Source: Pleomorphomonas carboxyditropha (lineage in GTDB: Bacteria > Pseudomonadota > Alphaproteobacteria > Rhizobiales > Pleomorphomonadaceae). Taken from it: a stretch of 64,000 nucleotides of DNA. The stretch is taken from the NCBI RefSeq assembly GCF_002770725.1, contig NZ_NQVN01000022.1:1-64000 (forward strand), in the 5' to 3' direction. Under the pieces are notes generated by a model. It was not told where the DNA came from, ran no database searches, and saw only the letters and a program-made list of their open reading frames with translations. Shown piece after piece: positions 43,712-52,563 of the stretch. The number at the start of each line of letters is the position of its first letter. Within the stretch, counting starts at the first letter, position 1. The translations under genes and the position numbers were made by a program.

Positions 43712-44281
43712 ATGCGCCAAGCCCGCGTCTTGACCGAACCGGAATTCAAACGGCTGCTGGCCGTCGTGGCACAGACCAAGCATGCCGAACGCAATCGGTT
43801 GGCTTTCATGTTGTCCCATCTCGCCGGACTACGCGTCGGCGAAATCGCCGGATTGCTGGTCGGCGATGTGCTGGAGGCCGAGGGTGCCATTCGACAGCGC
43901 ATGGTCGTCCGTGCCTCGATTGCCAAGGGCGGCCACGAGCGGGTGGTGTTCCTGAACGATCGGCTGCGGCATGAAATCGAGCGGTTTCGGCTTTCAGACC
44001 AGCGAAAGCGCAAACTAGACGACCCGTTGCTGATGACGCAGAAGCGCACGGCATTCTCGCCCAACACTCTCTGCCAGTTGATGAACCGCCTCTACGACGC
44101 TGCTGGCTTGGATGGCGCGACGTCCCATAGCGGTCGCCGTTGGTTCATCACCAAATTGGCAAACTCCGGCGTTGGTACGAAGGTCATCATGACGTTGGCC
44201 GGCCATAAGCACATGACCACAACGCAGAGGTATATCGATGTAAGGGAGGATATGATGCGAGCGGCCGTTGAGAATCTGTGA
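43712..44281 (+). CDS. Small tyrosine recombinase (catalytic domain only, FimB-like size)
   Basis: 189 aa. It lacks an N-terminal core-binding domain; the catalytic residues are all present: Arg in LAGLRVGEIAGL near 40, Lys in SIAKGGHERVVF, His/Arg in TSHSGRRWFITKL near 145, His in LAGHKHMTTTQ near 170 and Tyr in QRYIDV. It resembles short phase-variation recombinases in size and the XerC/D type in sequence. A truncated copy lies 7.4 kb to the left in the same orientation. Its target may be the palindrome found upstream of both copies. Confidence 0.9.
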   Translation: MRQARVLTEPEFKRLLAVVAQTKHAERNRLAFMLSHLAGLRVGEIAGLLVGDVLEAEGAIRQRMVVRASIAKGGHERVVFLNDRLRHEIERFRLSDQRKRKLDDPLLMTQKRTAFSPNTLCQLMNRLYDAAGLDGATSHSGRRWFITKLANSGVGTKVIMTLAGHKHMTTTQRYIDVREDMMRAAVENL

Positions 44282-44435: not shown

Positions 44436-44465
44436 TTGACTCCGCAGAAATTTGTTGGATAAATT
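44436..44465 (+). promoter_or_regulatory. Sigma-70-type promoter of the structured leader
   Basis: TTGACT (44436-44441), 18-nt spacer, TAAATT (44460-44465), preceded by an AT-rich stretch (ATTTATTAAATATATATTAT) that could act as an UP element. Transcription would begin near 44472. Confidence 0.65.
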
Positions 44466-44471
44466 AATAGC

Positions 44472-44884
44472 TATTGCGGCCTCGACCAATGCCGTCGAGG
44501 TGTTACCCCTTCGGGAGTAACCAGTGAAAAGGAGCGGCTAGCTCCGAAACATCGCTACGTGTTGGAGCTTCGCCTCGGCGGAGTTCCATTGGGGTTCTTT
44601 CGCGGACGCGGTGAAGGAACTGGGCTTCGGCCACCCTCGTAGTGCAGGCAGGTGCGACCCGAGAGGGTCCGGTTCGAAAAGAATGGGTTTCATAGCCGAG
44701 CGTCGGCTAACTGAAATTCGTCCCGGCGGGGCTATCGGTAACGATAGGAACTGGCAGTCTGGAGGCGGCACCGACACGAGACCGTTCTGCAATACGGCTC
44801 ACCAACACCCGGGAATTCCGGGGGGTGAGCCGCTATGCCTGAAGGAAAGAACGGCGCGGCTCACCTCAGTACGAGGTGTAAATC
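44472..44884 (+). ncRNA. Structured 5' leader with riboswitch-like switching stems
   Basis: A ~410-nt GC-rich leader of the 44885 gene. Hairpins seen in order: CCTCGAC/GTCGAGG (44480-44500), GTTAC...UUCG...GTAAC (44502-44521), GGAGC/GCTCC (44531-44545), a 10-bp stem at 44564-44587, GGC-UUCG-GCC near 44614, GACCC-GAGA-GGGTC (44656-44669), TAGCCGA/TCGGCTA (44693-44709) and CTATCG-GTAA-CGATAG (44732-44747). The 3' part can switch. GGTGAGCC (44824) can pair with GGCTCACC upstream (44796-44803) or downstream (44858-44865). The downstream copy shares CACC with CACCTC (44862-44867), which can pair with the ribosome site GAGGTG (44873-44878). The class is not recognised. Confidence 0.75.
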
Positions 44885-46648
44885 ATGGTAATAGCCGTCT
44901 CTGCCAATTTGGCACCAGCCCCAACCAGCACAGACACGAACGACCTTGGACTCGCGTTCAAGGGCGTCCCTGCGTTCGGCAAGAGCCTGAACGCCAGTCA
45001 AGCCATTATCTGGCGTCAAAAGACTCAGGAATGCGCCGGCACAGCTACAGACTTCGCAGCGAAGAAGCGAGTTGCCGTTCGCCAGCTTGTCGCCATGGTG
45101 GTCATGGACGCACAGCTCGCTCCGGCAGGCTTCTTTGAGGGTGAACTCAAAAACGCGGGGCTAGGTATCCCTCGCTCCAAAAATCCTCTCGCGGCAGCAT
45201 TCGCCTACCATCTCAAGCTAGACGTAGCGAACGCCGACAAGAAGAAAAAGGCCGACGACTCGAAGGCGCTCAACCGCTATGCCTCGGCGGGGGTACGATT
45301 GCTTGAACTGGCCCGCAATGCGATGCCGGCTCAGGATGGTGGAATCGACATCACCTACGACAGCGCTGGGGTGACGATGTTGATGGACATCATCGAGAGC
45401 GAAGGTGGCGTCAACAAGATGGCGCTGGACTCTGCCGCGGACAGTTCCGAGCACGCCGAGGTCATTCCTCTGTCATCCGACGCCCACACCATTCGGCAGT
45501 CAGCAATGGCGAAATCTCTGCTGGGTGGGGCGCAGGGAGGAGGAAGCGGCAGTCTCATCTTTGCCCTCGCGCTCCAATCAGGCGGCGAAGAGCCAAAGAT
45601 CGCCCGAACTCTTGATTTGCCTCCAGAGGCCATGCCGCTCGTCTACTCCGCACTGGATCTGGCTGACGAGCGCATCAAGCTTCTTGCCGAACTCTTTGAA
45701 GTCGGTGAGGCGCTCGTCGAGGAAAAAACCAACATCCTGGTCAACCACGAAGACGACCCGAATGACTCAGCGTCACCTCGTCGCTTGGCATCACGCCAGT
45801 TCGTGTTCCATCCCGATGGGAAGATGACGATCTCCCCTATCCTCAATCAGAGCGGCGTCATCATCAAGGTCGCGCCCTCGGTTGATTTATTGGGCGAGCC
45901 GATCCAGGGGCATGTGCGTTTTCAGACCTATGGTCGACGTCGAGCTGCGGCTAACATCAAGGACAGGAAGCGGCGCGATGCGTTCGACCTCGAGGTCACC
46001 GGCCCTGGCGACACGGAAGGGATCAAGCGGATCAAGCTGACGACATCGGTGGCGAAGGACGAGCAAGACAGGGTCGCGGATGTCGGCATGCTCATCGAGC
46101 AGGTGAGGTCGCGGACTAACAACTTTCCGACCATAGTCAGCGACTCATTCAGGCCAACCATCCAGACTGGCAATCTGCAGGGCCTCATCGACAAGATGGT
46201 AGAGATCGTTCCGACCGTGAAGAAATTCCGCAAGGACGGCGCTCCGGTGCAGTTGACGCTAGCGGCGCAAAGCTTGTCGATTGCATGCCACAAGAAGATT
46301 GTATCCGTGCCCGCGCTGTCTGCCCCGGTATGCGGTACAGTAAATGTTCATCCTGACGACTTTGTTGCCGTCACCGAAGCGCTAGCTCAACTCCCACTTA
46401 AGGGAACGATCAGTGCATCCATGGATGAGCATATGGTGGTGTTCCGGTTCGCGACGGCGCTTGCGAGCTACGAAGTTCATCTACCCTCGGTCTCTGACAA
46501 GCTTCAACGGTCCAACCGCCATATCGTCAAGATGTCGCCCGTGACATGGCCACGCATCGGCGAGCCATTGGCGAACGACGGCCGGCCGAACGACGAGTTG
46601 CCGAGCGACTCCACGCAGGCGAGCAACGACGAGTTGCCGAACGTCTGA
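44885..46648 (+). CDS. Unrecognised 587-aa island protein, paralogue of 50824-52563
   Basis: 587 aa, soluble, no transmembrane segments. I do not recognise a named family. It shares a layout with the 579-aa protein at 50824: a helical N-terminal half (AGLGIPRSKNPLAAAFAYHL against LGIGSANIKSKFRTAMAVV; GVTMLMDIIESEGGV against GIDKLSQVLKANGGV), SRQFV at 303-307, and a C-terminal beta-rich region (VFRFATALASYEVHLPS against VSFETSLATYELYAPV) that loosely resembles sliding-clamp folds. The C-terminus has a repeated NDELP. The ATG at 44885 is 7 nt after GAGGTG, which the leader can sequester. The next gene is the TGT-like enzyme. Confidence 0.75.
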   Translation: MVIAVSANLAPAPTSTDTNDLGLAFKGVPAFGKSLNASQAIIWRQKTQECAGTATDFAAKKRVAVRQLVAMVVMDAQLAPAGFFEGELKNAGLGIPRSKNPLAAAFAYHLKLDVANADKKKKADDSKALNRYASAGVRLLELARNAMPAQDGGIDITYDSAGVTMLMDIIESEGGVNKMALDSAADSSEHAEVIPLSSDAHTIRQSAMAKSLLGGAQGGGSGSLIFALALQSGGEEPKIARTLDLPPEAMPLVYSALDLADERIKLLAELFEVGEALVEEKTNILVNHEDDPNDSASPRRLASRQFVFHPDGKMTISPILNQSGVIIKVAPSVDLLGEPIQGHVRFQTYGRRRAAANIKDRKRRDAFDLEVTGPGDTEGIKRIKLTTSVAKDEQDRVADVGMLIEQVRSRTNNFPTIVSDSFRPTIQTGNLQGLIDKMVEIVPTVKKFRKDGAPVQLTLAAQSLSIACHKKIVSVPALSAPVCGTVNVHPDDFVAVTEALAQLPLKGTISASMDEHMVVFRFATALASYEVHLPSVSDKLQRSNRHIVKMSPVTWPRIGEPLANDGRPNDELPSDSTQASNDELPNV

Positions 46649-46713: not shown

Positions 46714-47982
46714 ATGATAAATTTTGCGTCTCTATGGGCTGACTATGCCCTTTATCTTCCTGCGCTGAGCAATGGCTATTCTGTCTTCGCCGCACAGCGG
46801 TCCAACGCGCAAATAAAAGCTCGGCTGCCATCTGGCGTTCGACCAACCGACTTCAACTTCCTGAGCGCTAGGTCCAAGCTCTATCATTGGCCCAACGCCC
46901 TCTATTCGGCCGCGCTTGGCTTTGAAGATGCACGGCCGGACATCGTCAAAACGCGGGACCGCCAGAACACGTTTGCCATGGCAGATAGCGGCGGCTTCTC
47001 ACTGATCAGCGGGGCGGTCAAATACTCTGAAGCCTCGTTTCGCGCAAAAGTGCTGCAGTGGCAGGAAGCTCACTTCGACGTGGGTCTCATCCTCGATGTG
47101 CCGACGCGTGCGCTCAGCGTCCATGCAAGCGGCGTTAAGTCCTTCGCTGAGTGTCTCAACCGAACCATCGACAATCTCAAGTTCGCCGAGAACAATCGCA
47201 GCGCTTCCAGTCTGCGCCTCCTGTCGGTCTATCAAGGACGAGACCACAAGGAGGCCGAGTATTGGAGAGAGCAGATCGCGCCATATCCTCTTGAGGGCTT
47301 AGCGATCGCCGGACACACGCGTCTCGATATGTGGTTCTGGGCAGAGCAGTTTTTGAAGATGCTCGACGCAGGCACGTTTGACCGCGTGACACATATTCAT
47401 TTTCTGGGAACTAGCCGTCCAGCCTTCGCAGTCTTGGCCACGGCCTTGCAGCGAGCATTGAGACGGCATGTAAATGACAAAATCACGGTCAGCTTCGATA
47501 GTTCGCGAAGCTTCAGCATCGTCCAGCGTTATGGGCAGATCACAACGGGGCTGGATGTGAAAGGAGGCGAGTTCCGATTACTCTCTCATACGCTTCCACA
47601 ACATGGTGGCGATTTCCACCCTCACTCACCGTTTCCGTTTTCCAGCCCGCTTGGCGATGGTTGCAGGACGGGAGACTTCATGTCTGGACGCAACCCCGCC
47701 GATCCCGCAGCCGACACTCTCGGCAAGCTGATGCTCACCAATCACTCCGTTTATGCGGAGCTGTCGGGGATTTTACAGGCCAATCGCTTGGTCGATATGG
47801 CGCAGAACGACAAAAATACCTCGGTGCCATGGGGAATTTGGAAAAGCGTTGAAGCGTTGGACAAAGTCTTCTCTGGCAGCGATGTGGCAAACGGTCTCAA
47901 GGCGCTGCGAACACATGGACGAAAATTAAACGTCGATGTATCCGGCGAGAACGAGCGTTCTGAGGAAGGAGGCGAGACGTAG
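46714..47982 (+). CDS. tRNA-guanine-transglycosylase-like enzyme (DpdA-like)
   Basis: 422 aa. The order of TGT active-site elements is visible: Asp91 in MADSGGFSLISG (TGT: DSGGF/YQ), Asp128 in LILDVPT, Gln174 in SVYQGRDHKEAEYW (TGT: VQGG), EGLAIAG at 194-200 (TGT: GYAVGGL), the nucleophile-type Asp262 in FDSSRSFS (TGT: FDCVLPTR) and His344 in MLTNHSVY (TGT: LTWHNLH). The CxC-x2-C zinc cluster is missing; a single Cys317 remains. TGT-family enzymes exchange guanine for 7-deazaguanines in tRNA, and DpdA relatives do so in DNA. No other dpd or queuosine genes are nearby. This assignment is from motifs only. Confidence 0.68.
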   Translation: MINFASLWADYALYLPALSNGYSVFAAQRSNAQIKARLPSGVRPTDFNFLSARSKLYHWPNALYSAALGFEDARPDIVKTRDRQNTFAMADSGGFSLISGAVKYSEASFRAKVLQWQEAHFDVGLILDVPTRALSVHASGVKSFAECLNRTIDNLKFAENNRSASSLRLLSVYQGRDHKEAEYWREQIAPYPLEGLAIAGHTRLDMWFWAEQFLKMLDAGTFDRVTHIHFLGTSRPAFAVLATALQRALRRHVNDKITVSFDSSRSFSIVQRYGQITTGLDVKGGEFRLLSHTLPQHGGDFHPHSPFPFSSPLGDGCRTGDFMSGRNPADPAADTLGKLMLTNHSVYAELSGILQANRLVDMAQNDKNTSVPWGIWKSVEALDKVFSGSDVANGLKALRTHGRKLNVDVSGENERSEEGGET

Positions 47983-48258: not shown

Positions 48259-48747
48259 TTACTTGCCGACGAAGTCCTTGAACAAGATGACCTGTTTCAG
48301 ATCGTCGTGTTCCCAATTCTCAAATTCCTTAGTGGCGTAGCGCGCTGGGCTCTTTTCGCCTTGGCGCTGCACCGTCACCTCACCACCCGGACAAACCTCA
48401 CGCCAAACTGAGTGACATATGTTCTGCAACTCTGCCTCGGATCTGCTGCCGGCGAAGTTCACCAAGGCGTGGCCGTGGATATGGCTGGTAATCTGCTCCA
48501 AGAACATGATGCCCTGCGTCCGCTCGTCCCATGCCTTCCTATAGTAGCTGCGACCCAAAAGGCTGCGGTCGAGGCGCTTATGGAACTCCCGGATCAGATT
48601 GTGGAAGTCCGAGACCGGCAGGCAAACACTGCTGGCTAGCGTCAGGAAGTGACCGTCGAACTGCCTTGCGTATTCAACGTAAACTGGCCGCATGGTTCGA
48701 TTGTAAAACTGCGCCGCCTGCATTTCTTTATATTCATTTACATCCAT
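48259..48747 (-). CDS. Small HUH-endonuclease/Rep-like protein
   Basis: 162 aa. A hydrophobic-HxH motif occurs at 88-94 (SHIHGHA), after MFLEQIT, and a Tyr-x2-Lys element at 137-140 (SPARYATKEFEN), the order and spacing expected of single-Tyr HUH nickases that start rolling-circle replication or transposition. Cys residues follow the HUH motif. It is shorter than most Rep proteins. The ATG at 48747 has only a weak ribosome site; a TTG four codons upstream is possible. Nothing else in the island looks like a replicon. Confidence 0.55.
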   Translation of the reverse strand: MDVNEYKEMQAAQFYNRTMRPVYVEYARQFDGHFLTLASSVCLPVSDFHNLIREFHKRLDRSLLGRSYYRKAWDERTQGIMFLEQITSHIHGHALVNFAGSRSEAELQNICHSVWREVCPGGEVTVQRQGEKSPARYATKEFENWEHDDLKQVILFKDFVGK

Positions 48748-48834
48748 GTATAAAACCAATCCAAAATATAAATAAACGTGCAGCAGCGCCCATTGCGTTA
48801 CTGCTAAAGCTATTTATCTTTGGAGGCTTGGAAT

Positions 48835-49230
48835 ATGAATAAGGAGATCAAACTGCTGGAAGACGTTTATAAGCAGCTTCGTGTTGCTGAGCTTGTTAGA
48901 TCGAAGGGCGAATTTTCCAAAAAGTTCTTGGGAAAATCAAAAAGCTACCTGACATCAATGGCAGCTCGACAGCGCCACATCTCCAGCGATGTGATGGTGG
49001 ATTTAAGCGAGGCGATCATCGCCGAGATCAGAGCCAAGAGAGATGACCGCTACGTGGCCGATCGCATTGCGTTGCGTCACGCCATGATCGCGGTGAACGG
49101 ATATCTAGCAGAGCAGACCATACCTCCCTGCTTGAAGAAAAGCGCACCATCTTTGCCAGCCCAAATCCAACCCGCGCCATTTCCAAAAATCAGCTGGATG
49201 AACTCATTAATCGGCATTTGGCAAGTGTGA
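48835..49230 (+). CDS. Small island protein, DUF6626-like
   Basis: 131 aa. The first 70 residues (LLEDVYKQLRVAELVRSKGE, then FSKKFLGKSKSYLTSMAARQ) form a helical segment resembling a helix-turn-helix, as in small rhizobial proteins annotated DUF6626; that match is from memory and only moderately sure. The tail is Pro-rich (PPCLKKSAPSLPAQIQPAPF). GGAGG lies 12 nt before the ATG. It is divergent from the HUH-like gene with an 87-bp gap, so it may regulate that gene. Confidence 0.6.
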   Translation: MNKEIKLLEDVYKQLRVAELVRSKGEFSKKFLGKSKSYLTSMAARQRHISSDVMVDLSEAIIAEIRAKRDDRYVADRIALRHAMIAVNGYLAEQTIPPCLKKSAPSLPAQIQPAPFPKISWMNSLIGIWQV

Positions 49231-50390: not shown

Positions 50391-50823
50391 GTTCAAGTCC
50401 GCGCCGAGCCCGTCCGAGATATTCCGACGTATCGGCACTTTCTCTTAAAGAGAAGACGGTTCTCCCCGCGCAAAACTGTGACTTTTTCTTTCGGCACCCT
50501 TTGTAACCTGAGGCTTATTTCGCGAGCGCAGCAGCCAATCAATTTGTAATGATCATCTCGCTGACTTGTTAACCAACATCTTTGTTCCGGGATTGACTTG
50601 TAAAAAATCACTCTTGATTTGCTTGACAGATAGAAAAACTGTGAGACTATCCGCCTCGCCCAGCAATATCCGAAGCAAATTGCGCAGTTTTCAACGAATA
50701 CTTCTGGGTCGGGCCGTATAGGCCCAGGGCAAACGCCCAATCACCATAAGCAACATACGTTGTTTGCTGCCAGACCATCCTGGTTTGGCGGTCTTATCAA
50801 TACGCTCAAAACAGGAGTTTCCT
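50391..50823 (+). promoter_or_regulatory. Leader and promoter region of the second paralogue
   Basis: 433 bp without a gene. It holds the palindrome TTCTCTT-A-AAGAGAA (50440-50454), a TTGACA (50623-50628) with GACTAT 16 nt on as a candidate promoter, and tandem hairpins GGGCC/GGCCC and GGGC/GCCC at about 50710-50740. AGGAG precedes the ATG. The leader would be about 170 nt. Confidence 0.5.
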
Positions 50824-52563
50824 ATGAGCAATATCAATGTTACCCCCACCACCCAGTCCGAGCTTCAGCCGGCCGCGCCAGCCAACGTCAATGGGATTGC
50901 AGCCATCGAGACCAACGAGCCGGCGCAGTCGGTTGGCGTCTCTACTAGCAAGGCTCCGACGGTCGACAACCTTCACCAGCTCGACGATGCCACCCGCACC
51001 AAGCTCGGCAACGACTGGGCTGATCGCTGCCAGAAGGCAGGCCATGACTTCCAGGAGATGAAAGCCCGCCAAGACTCCTATCTCCTGCGTGCCATTGCTG
51101 CGCTTGCGCTGTCGATTGTCTTCTTCCCGCAAACGGACTGGGCGGCGAAGGTCAACGCCTTGGGCATCGGGTCGGCAAACATCAAGAGCAAGTTTAGAAC
51201 GGCCATGGCGGTCGTCGGCACCTTTGGTCTCAACCCGTACCAGACCGACTCCGTGAAAGCCAAGCTCGACGGTCAGGCGCTCGGCCGCAATGCGCTGGCG
51301 ACCGAATGGTTGGCTGACTACATCATCAATCTCGACGCGAACGGCAGGGCTACGCTCACGCTGGACGAAGCCGGCATTGACAAGCTCAGCCAAGTGCTGA
51401 AGGCCAATGGCGGCGTTATCGCGGTCGGCGATCTTCAGCGCGTCGCCTACCGAGAGACGGTCGCTGCCAGCCGCCTCCGCGTATCGATCGATACGAAAGG
51501 CGCCGCTGCCATCATCGCTGAGCGTGGCGAGCGGCGTATTCGCGCGCAGAACGGTCTTGATAAGGATGCGCCGGTTCCGTTCGTCGTTGACGTCAAGGTC
51601 GGCAATGCGCAGACAGCCTACGCGGTCCCGGACGCACTTCTTGACGTCATCAAGACCGGGATCTTCAAGGCGGCCGCTAGTGTCGACCCGCTCGTCGACA
51701 CCTTTGGCGAGTTGACGAAGGTTAGTGCCATCGCCCCGCACCAGCTTGTCGGTGCTACGGCGGGTGCCAACCCGGAGATGGGCGCAGGCTCACGGCAGTT
51801 CGTTCTCCGCGCCGATCGGTCGATCCAGGTTTCAACGATCCCGGCAAGCAACGAAGTGAACCCGGTGCTGATCGCTCGTCCGGCGACGCAGATCATCGAG
51901 CCATGGCCGGCGGCAGCTTGTCGCATGTCGACCAAGGGGTGGCAGTTTGCGGAAGCAAACCTGATCGACACTGACCGCCGCATCTATTTCGATGCATCAG
52001 TGTCGGCTAGCGCGGGTTCCACGCCTTCGGTCACGCTCAGCACCGTTGCGACCGGTGAGAGCATTGGCTCCGAGACTATCGTACTTGAGCCTCTCGTACC
52101 GGGCATGCCTGTCTATCCCGTCGAGTTCGATGCGTCTTCCCTACAGACCGACTTCGAGTTTGAGGTGGATGTCAAGGACCTGACCGAGTGGTGTAACAAA
52201 GCCGCGAGCAAGCTCCGCGATACCGAAAGCCTCGTCACGCTCGTGGCAGACGGCTCCAGGGCCTCTCTCGGGGCCGGCAAGCATCCTCAGGCGGGCAAGA
52301 ATCCTCTCAAGATCACTCTGACTGGCCGAGCAACGGCCGGCATCGTGCATCTGCGTGCCATCGACTTCGGCGCGCTTGCCAAGACTGTCGAAGGGCTGAC
52401 CCTGACGGGCAATGCTAAGGTTTCCTTCAAGATCGATGAGCGAGCAGCAATGAGAGTCAGCTTCGAGACCAGCCTCGCGACCTACGAGCTTTATGCTCCG
52501 GTGCTTCAGCCAGGCAGCTTCAAGCCGTACACTCAGTGCTTCCGTCCGATGGCGGTGGCGTGA
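50824..52563 (+). CDS. Unrecognised 579-aa island protein, paralogue of 44885-46648
   Basis: 579 aa, soluble, no named family recognised. It aligns in patches with the 587-aa protein across its length (LGIGSANIKSKF, GIDKLSQVLKANGGV, SRQFV at 323-327, ending ATYELYAP), so the two are anciently duplicated. A disordered Pro/Thr/Ala N-terminus covers the first 45 residues. The C-terminal 150 residues are beta-rich (FEFEVDVKDLTEWCNKAASK, GLTLTGNAKVSFKIDE). ATG at 50824 follows AACAGGAG. It stands alone on the plus strand with its own leader. Confidence 0.75.
   Translation: MSNINVTPTTQSELQPAAPANVNGIAAIETNEPAQSVGVSTSKAPTVDNLHQLDDATRTKLGNDWADRCQKAGHDFQEMKARQDSYLLRAIAALALSIVFFPQTDWAAKVNALGIGSANIKSKFRTAMAVVGTFGLNPYQTDSVKAKLDGQALGRNALATEWLADYIINLDANGRATLTLDEAGIDKLSQVLKANGGVIAVGDLQRVAYRETVAASRLRVSIDTKGAAAIIAERGERRIRAQNGLDKDAPVPFVVDVKVGNAQTAYAVPDALLDVIKTGIFKAAASVDPLVDTFGELTKVSAIAPHQLVGATAGANPEMGAGSRQFVLRADRSIQVSTIPASNEVNPVLIARPATQIIEPWPAAACRMSTKGWQFAEANLIDTDRRIYFDASVSASAGSTPSVTLSTVATGESIGSETIVLEPLVPGMPVYPVEFDASSLQTDFEFEVDVKDLTEWCNKAASKLRDTESLVTLVADGSRASLGAGKHPQAGKNPLKITLTGRATAGIVHLRAIDFGALAKTVEGLTLTGNAKVSFKIDERAAMRVSFETSLATYELYAPVLQPGSFKPYTQCFRPMAVA

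Follow-up and report, generated by a model that had tools for sequence, protein, structure and literature searches.

What does a structured stretch of roughly 410 nucleotides do directly in front of the first gene of an operon: does it govern that operon, does it have work of its own, or is it a DNA structure? The question arises from the window, the whole 64,000-nt stretch of Pleomorphomonas carboxyditropha DNA analysed here (contig NZ_NQVN01000022.1), in which a sequence-only reading had pointed to an unrecognised leader with riboswitch-like stems and guessed at a 7-deazaguanine or nucleotide ligand. The leader and its neighbours, which lie together in a mobile element, are as follows.

43712 to 44281, + strand: tyrosine recombinase, 189 aa (PF00589, E 1.2e-24)
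44436 to 44465, + strand: promoter-like site, TTGACT, spacer and TAAATT by scan, 9/12 matches
44472 to 44884, + strand: whole structured leader (RNA), from its fold (z -5.40) and the folds of homologues
44885 to 46648, + strand: protein A, 587 aa, with a predicted sliding-clamp fold in part
46714 to 47982, + strand: TGT-like enzyme, in an open frame from 46546, on weak but agreeing evidence
48259 to 48759, - strand: small HUH-like protein, 166 aa, tentative replication initiator (FLTL, HIH and YATKE by eye)
48820 to 49230, + strand: DUF6626 protein (PF20331, E 5.8e-9)

Positions 44472-44900 fold at -195.7 kcal/mol, a stability equalled by none of 100 dinucleotide shuffles, while homologous leaders give z -4.39 in Rhizobium sp. 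Leaf262 and z -5.52 in genome G527. Read directly from the letters, the elements first reported are all exactly in place: GGCTCACC at 44796-44803 and again at 44858-44865, GGTGAGCC at 44824-44831, CACCTC at 44862-44867, GAGGTG at 44873-44878 and the ATG at 44885. A repeated word with its reverse complement between the two copies, within 110 nt, occurred in 30 of 2000 shuffles as a 7-mer, in 2 of 2000 as an 8-mer and in 0 of 2000 as a 9-mer. Two UUCG and two GNRA loops had been claimed, and two CUUCGG and one GUAA do sit in hairpins of the minimum-energy fold (one UUCG being drawn with a closing pair inside the loop), but GAGA is paired otherwise in that fold and is instead the loop of hairpin P7 of the comparative structure given below.

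None of the 4227 models of Rfam matches the leader. At gathering scores Rfam 15 detects just a pair of tRNAs in other parts of the window, and in permissive scans the copies of the window, Leaf262 and G527 stayed far below the thresholds, with 18.5 bits against a cut-off of 45 and 12.6 against 50, and with 17.5 against 37 and 10.4 against 45 on the other strand; the preQ1 families are among those without a match in all three. The description of the leader as unrecognised is thereby borne out. Absence from Rfam is nevertheless no proof of novelty, since the candidate-motif table of PMC2864571 includes motifs without Rfam numbers, among them Rhizobiales-1. Neither such a mobile element nor such an RNA was found in the titles and abstract openings of the literature searched.

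Six copies of the RNA are known, in the window, in G605 and G528 (both Pleomorphomonas), in Rhizobium sp. Leaf262, and in G527 and G1186 of one Devosia-family genus; the leader is single-copy in its own genome. BLAST over 20 genomes of the family found it in three, its own, G605 (91%) and G528 (89%). Leaf262 (L022) was reached by scanning genome contigs with the TGT-like protein, and its leader has a blastn alignment of 249 columns at 73% (E 9e-33) and scores 124.6 bits with covariance model R1 of the 189-nt core. Model R2, the core including Leaf262, was run on 397 genomes of the order and returned its own genome, G605, G528, the new copy in G527 (89.4 bits, E 7.9e-23) and four weak matches. 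All four were dropped. Three of these (G592, G427 and G557, 21.1-22.6 bits) have broken or very partial alignments; the fourth, in G537 (25.5 bits, E 2.8e-4 per genome), aligns at P7-P10 only and is unproven, because about 0.1 such match is expected by chance in 397 genomes. Model R3 found two of 136 genomes in the family of G527 (G527 and G1186), one of 199 in that of Leaf262 (Leaf262 itself) and one of 152 in the class (its own). Stretch 44795-44904 also matches in antisense (R1 18.3 bits, R3 17.5; 12.4 in L021), which reflects the repeat hairpins; the E limit of the model searches excludes this match. BLAST of the leader returned nothing from plasmids and, with the window copy as query, nothing from phages, and two exact leader patterns gave nothing in viral contigs. 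The RNA is rare among the genomes searched, where searches over 40 genomes use stricter filters that lose weak matches, so that absence there is soft.

The comparative structure and the parts of the window fold around it can be set out in window coordinates.

44479 to 44501, + strand: hairpin P1, 7-nt loop in 6/6 copies; 4/7 pairs changed on both sides, four rows
44502 to 44521, + strand: hairpin P2, UUCG loop; 3/5 outer pairs changed on both sides, four rows
44531 to 44545, + strand: hairpin P3, loop GGCUA; 2/5 pairs changed on both sides, one broken in G528
44563 to 44632, + strand: variable hairpins P4 and P5 and a UUCG hairpin, in the window fold; not kept in Leaf262 (MAFFT)
44644 to 44832, + strand: conserved core, used for covariance models R1-R3
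44651 to 44772, + strand: closing helix P6, GGUGC 44651-44655 with GCACC 44768-44772, without covariation
44656 to 44669, + strand: hairpin P7, GAGA loop invariant; one pair changed on both sides
44670 to 44753, + strand: helix P8, 44670-44675 with 44748-44753; two pairs changed on both sides
44683 to 44721, + strand: long hairpin P9; 11/17 pairs changed on both sides
44722 to 44747, + strand: hairpins P10 (invariant) and P11 (two pairs changed on both sides)
44795 to 44832, + strand: hairpin P12, copy 1 CGGCTCACC 44795-44803 with the middle element 44824-44832
44857 to 44865, + strand: repeat copy 2 (CGGCTCACC), alternative partner of the middle element
44862 to 44878, + strand: ribosome-site hairpin over GAGGTG, formed in 6/6 copies with differing letters

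The leader is a real conserved RNA whose helices are kept by compensatory changes. Over the six copies of the 189-nt core, in an alignment fitted to the covariance-model structure and with related rows that inflate such counts, 18 of 56 pairs show both-side changes, and pairing is standard in 97.1% of 307 cells. Slid controls reach 31.4-49.5% paired with 0 to 3 both-side pairs, and neither the paired fraction nor the both-side count was reached by any of 500 shuffles. Eleven of the 18 pairs lie in P9, two each in P8, P11 and the inner part of P12, and one in P7. For P1-P3 a structure-free MAFFT alignment of four copies was used, in which 9 of 17 pairs changed on both sides and 98.5% of 68 cells pair, against 28.4-50.7% when slid; the 5' half of the leader keeps its pairing more than its letters. 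Counting further pair types is a weak measure, reached by 14 of 500 shuffles for the core and by 249 of 500 for the 5' hairpins. G-U accounts for 21 of the 298 standard core cells, which fits pairing as RNA. Homologous leaders with compensatory changes in several stems were thus found, as the sequence-only reading had hoped; the covariation that it sought in all three competing stems was not, the pairing of copy 1 with the middle element varying on one side only.

Conservation differs from helix to helix. In the MAFFT alignment A6, Leaf262 retains little of the window fold outside P1-P3, with changed pairs staying canonical in 2 of 11 cases in P9, 4 of 10 in P5, 0 of 9 in P4 (mostly gaps), 6 of 10 in the P6-P8 stretch of the window fold, 0 of 4 at 44523-44556 and 2 of 6 in the outer stem 44635-44876. 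P4, P5 and the outer stem, which are not kept in Leaf262, therefore lack covariation support, and given this result P7-P9 rest mainly on the model-fitted alignment. P9 is short or absent in G527 and G1186, and its covariation is partly visible, gap-free, among the three Pleomorphomonas copies. P6 is invariant apart from one broken pair in G528, the outermost pair of P7 is lost in two of six copies, and all lettered cells of outer P12 pair, with two pairs varying on one side only and one gap (G528). The P1 loops of the six copies read CAATGCC, CAACGCC, AAATGCC, TATTGCC, TGATGCT and CAATGCC, and the P3 loop GGC..A is retained in Leaf262, G527 and G1186. As a separate observation, the 7-nt P1 loop (44487-44493), which contains UGCC in most copies, might form pairs with GGC in the P3 loop (44536-44540) or, alternatively, with GGCA in the core (44647-44650). 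We judge it uncommon for an uncatalogued RNA of 400 nt to covary to this degree, and with six copies in three families its structure can be tested immediately.

Transcription would start near 44472, as suggested by the promoter-like site at 44436-44465, the one site found in the scan against a shuffle mean of 0.3. By eye, TTGACT or TTGACA stands at the equivalent place in G605, G528 and Leaf262, and TTGCRC...TATTTC at the promoter place in G527 and G1186. The window site can also be read by eye with ATAAAT and 17-nt spacing. Three simpler accounts of the leader were set aside. It is not protein-coding, with at least one stop in all six frames of all six leaders; it is not an intrinsic terminator, both terminator-like sites lying on the - strand and none being found on the + strand; and a group I or II intron was rejected for want of an Rfam match and of a 5' exon, none being visible since the leader apparently begins just past the promoter-like site.

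The genes behind the leader bear on the ligand that had been guessed. The predicted model of protein A (pLDDT 70.2, pTM 0.52, 149 of 587 residues below 50) matches PCNA and 9-1-1 clamps including RAD1 in the 50 PDB matches listed, at E 3.9e-7 to 1.1e-5 over about 260-320 columns, with TM 0.56-0.65 by target length and 0.28-0.32 by query length. Its strand pattern suggests a sliding-clamp fold in the C-terminal part, and family searches gave no family match. The following gene matches TIGR00432 at E 0.0019 (16.7 bits against a cut-off of 350) and has no Pfam match; with a low-confidence model (pLDDT 46.3) Foldseek finds TGT structures at E 5.5e-4 and DpdA 7ui4 at E 0.016. The element would join a sliding-clamp fold with a TGT-like enzyme, a pairing not found in the literature searched. 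In Leaf262 a third gene (325 aa, L022:9376-10353, no Pfam match) stands behind the TGT-like gene. A TGT-like gene follows an A-like gene in the window, G605, Leaf262, G508, G590, G766 and G893, and on the Azospirillum plasmid pAB510d (L028) a relative lies beside the same small recombinase.

A riboswitch sensing 7-deazaguanine or a nucleotide and feeding the TGT-like enzyme would agree with the TGT-like gene after protein A in the window, G605 and Leaf262. Both Devosia-family copies lead another operon, however, and a tblastn search of 20 kb surrounding the G1186 copy was negative for TGT. Nor is there an RNA-model match before the TGT operons of G508, G590, G766 and G893 or at the Azospirillum TGT locus, and the preQ1 families are no better than the rest of Rfam. 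The Devosia-family copies and the four TGT operons argue against a link with TGT, and the ligand guess is not supported; we regard this reading as very improbable.

Six A-related loci (window 50824, G508, G590, G465, G766 and G893), four of which carry a TGT-like gene, were unmatched by R3, R1 having covered four of the six, and their leaders were on that account rejected as the same RNA. The last 214 nt before these genes fold at z -0.81 to -3.49 (40 shuffles each, the G465 start being uncertain). A protein A profile run on 394 genomes from the family of Leaf262 recovered Leaf262 and two loci of the other type. The window paralogue of A, at 50824-52563, is 23% identical to it; both are about 580 aa and are encoded by the mobile element, and neither has a Pfam match. 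The second protein type is preceded by short leaders of a different kind (window 50560-50826 and L018:8800-9016 of Devosia soli), and these two share AGGAGTTT(T)CCTATG, with a possible small hairpin over the ribosome site.

An exclusive link between the RNA and protein A was likewise ruled out. The RNA of G527 and G1186 precedes a gene for a 280-aa protein without detectable similarity to A (hhalign probability 0.14%, E 0.41). This bears on a second possibility, that the leader is bound by the product of the operon's first gene, as in ribosomal-protein leaders. A clamp-like protein might bind nucleic acid, and GGCTCACC is present as two identical sites, but the two groups have the same core and yet unrelated first proteins, and autoregulation of this kind appears quite improbable.

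What does accompany the RNA is the rest of the element. A relative of the 189-aa tyrosine recombinase is found near all six copies, and the HUH-like and DUF6626 proteins recur in G605, Leaf262 and G1186. The HIH and YATKE motifs of the 48259-48759 protein are ones that we take to be HUH-like; PF23343 (REP_ORF2-G2P) scores E 0.08, below its cut-off, and does not match the relatives in G508, G590 and G1186. On the single contig of G1186 the recombinase, RNA, 280-aa, 195-aa, HUH-like and DUF6626 genes lie within about 4.3 kb; the G527 contig stops shortly past the second gene. In Leaf262 the leader follows about 350 nt after the end of the HUH-like gene, and the recombinase is 2.1 kb away. The RNA accompanies the element, and not one particular protein.

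This company raises a third possibility, a single-stranded DNA structure serving as a replication origin or recombination site for the HUH-like protein or the recombinase. Origins of single-stranded DNA are likewise rich in hairpins, and besides the recombinase an HUH-like gene lies near all four copies examined for it (window, G605, Leaf262 and G1186). Against it stand the G-U cells, the UUCG and GNRA loops and the ribosome-site hairpin, together with the promoter-like site just upstream and the distance of the Leaf262 recombinase; elements with a recombinase relative in G508, G465, G766 and G893 have no RNA-model match. A DNA site is, in our estimation, improbable.

A weightier alternative is suggested by the conservation of the core. 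Between the window and Leaf262 the RNA core is 70.7% identical (133/188), against 66.5% for the recombinase gene, 63.1% for the whole leader, 59.3% for the TGT gene, 54.3% for the leader 5' half and 53.0% for the A gene; third codon positions stand at 32.9 to 41.8% across the genes compared, the lowest value being that of A, and the out-of-frame TGT row of L021 was left out. Core identity above that of the genes suggests strong selection on the core, more than on the gene behind it. Of the gap-free core columns, 41 of 68 unpaired and 52 of 83 paired are invariant in six copies, most conspicuously in GAGGCGGCACC and in copy 1 CGGCTCACC. Such conservation of core and unpaired columns, with the size and the many helices, would suit an RNA acting in trans or in an RNP, that is, a leader cut off or a stable RNA bound by a protein of the element, whose place before the cargo operon would mean co-expression and whose ribosome-site hairpin would be secondary. 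The RNA could then be a working part of the element (recombinase, HUH-like, DUF6626), an RNP or a sensor kept during cargo swaps, the cargo of one lineage being for example a DpdA/TGT-like enzyme beside a sliding-clamp protein, and that of another consisting of unrelated proteins. The RNA is retained by the element even where the cargo is a different one. In G528 (L016/L023) the clamp-like gene is broken by stops, a transposase gene adjoins, and the RNA has lost one P6 pair, one P3 pair and a base of the middle element, with copy 2 changed, as if leader and operon were decaying together. Yet the 3' end overlaps the ribosome site in 6/6 copies, the + strand has no terminator-like site, and the two kinds of first protein are dissimilar, so that no common partner is seen in the operon. 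We hold this reading to be unlikely; if true, it would describe a new kind of element RNA.

In each of the six copies a start codon on the RNA's own strand follows at once, the gene behind it being broken further on in G528, and a ribosome-site hairpin is well supported in all six by predicted pairing and folding. Its stem is CACCUC/GAGGUG or near it in Pleomorphomonas, UCACCUUUC/GAAGGGUGA in Leaf262 and CCUUUCAAA/UUUGAAAGG in the Devosia-family copies, one pair shorter in G1186. Copy 2 stays CGGCYCACC (CGGCTCGCC in G528) despite differing flanks, although the Devosia-family hairpin uses only its last two letters, which would suit a role for copy 2 apart from that hairpin.

The three-way switch proposed for these elements is possible on the folding models. 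Both copies of GGCTCACC are largely conserved, and the middle element could pair with copy 2 over 9 of 9 positions in the window, G605, Leaf262 and G1186 and over 8 of 9 in G527, the middle element of G528 not being intact. Energies favour copy 1 with the middle element (0.84 to 0.998 in the five copies whose middle element is intact), and the alternative is minor, with p of 0.13 in the window, 0.056 in G605, 0.0017 in Leaf262, 4e-7 in G527 and 0.003 in G1186. Forcing it costs 1.2 to 9.0 kcal/mol (9 in G527) and moves the modelled openness of the ribosome site from 0.12 to 0.12 in the window, 0.00 to 0.19 in G605, 0.00 to 0.27 in Leaf262, 0.03 to 0.18 in G1186 and 0.19 to 0.75 in G527. Of the claim that one fold blocks translation and the other frees it, the hiding hairpin therefore stands, while the freeing is modest except in G527.

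Given its constant position and the ribosome-site hairpin, the leader is best explained by translational control of the cargo operon, and we think it rather probable that it is the 5' UTR of that operon, controlling translation of the first gene, and, taken jointly with this, that it belongs to a new RNA family. In the default state the ribosome site would be hidden by the 3' hairpin; the folded body (P1-P3 and the closed core P6-P12) would be the sensing or binding part, and a factor bound there would shift the 3' end and expose the site, possibly by the middle GGTGAGCC moving from copy 1 to copy 2 of GGCTCACC. About 410 nt is large for a leader with a translational task alone, the operon behind it is not constant, related operons lack the leader, the whole leader and still more its 5' half are less alike between the window and Leaf262 than the recombinase gene is, and neither outer P12 nor P6 has a both-side change, all of which tell against the 5'-UTR reading. 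Should the leader answer a cell signal, it would tell when the element switches its cargo on.

Among known systems, the STAXI motif of PMC2864571 is likewise a candidate structured RNA, found close to integrase genes and genes for DNA-handling proteins, but it is a pseudoknot repeated two or usually three times. The leader here is a single large RNA with many hairpins. In their way of working, translational riboswitches and ribosomal-protein leaders share with it a structured 5' UTR, a hairpin over the ribosome site and possible competing pairing; it differs from them in having no known aptamer or protein site, in its about 410 nt with many hairpins, and in its tie to a mobile element and two unrelated operons. 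A preQ1 riboswitch is what one would expect ahead of a TGT-like gene, whereas this RNA is present without TGT (G1186) and was not found before other TGT operons. OLE, GOLLD, ROOL and HEARO are large, ornate bacterial RNAs, partly from phage or mobile contexts, and resemble the leader in their size and many conserved unpaired bases; in contrast to them, each copy described here runs directly into a start codon.
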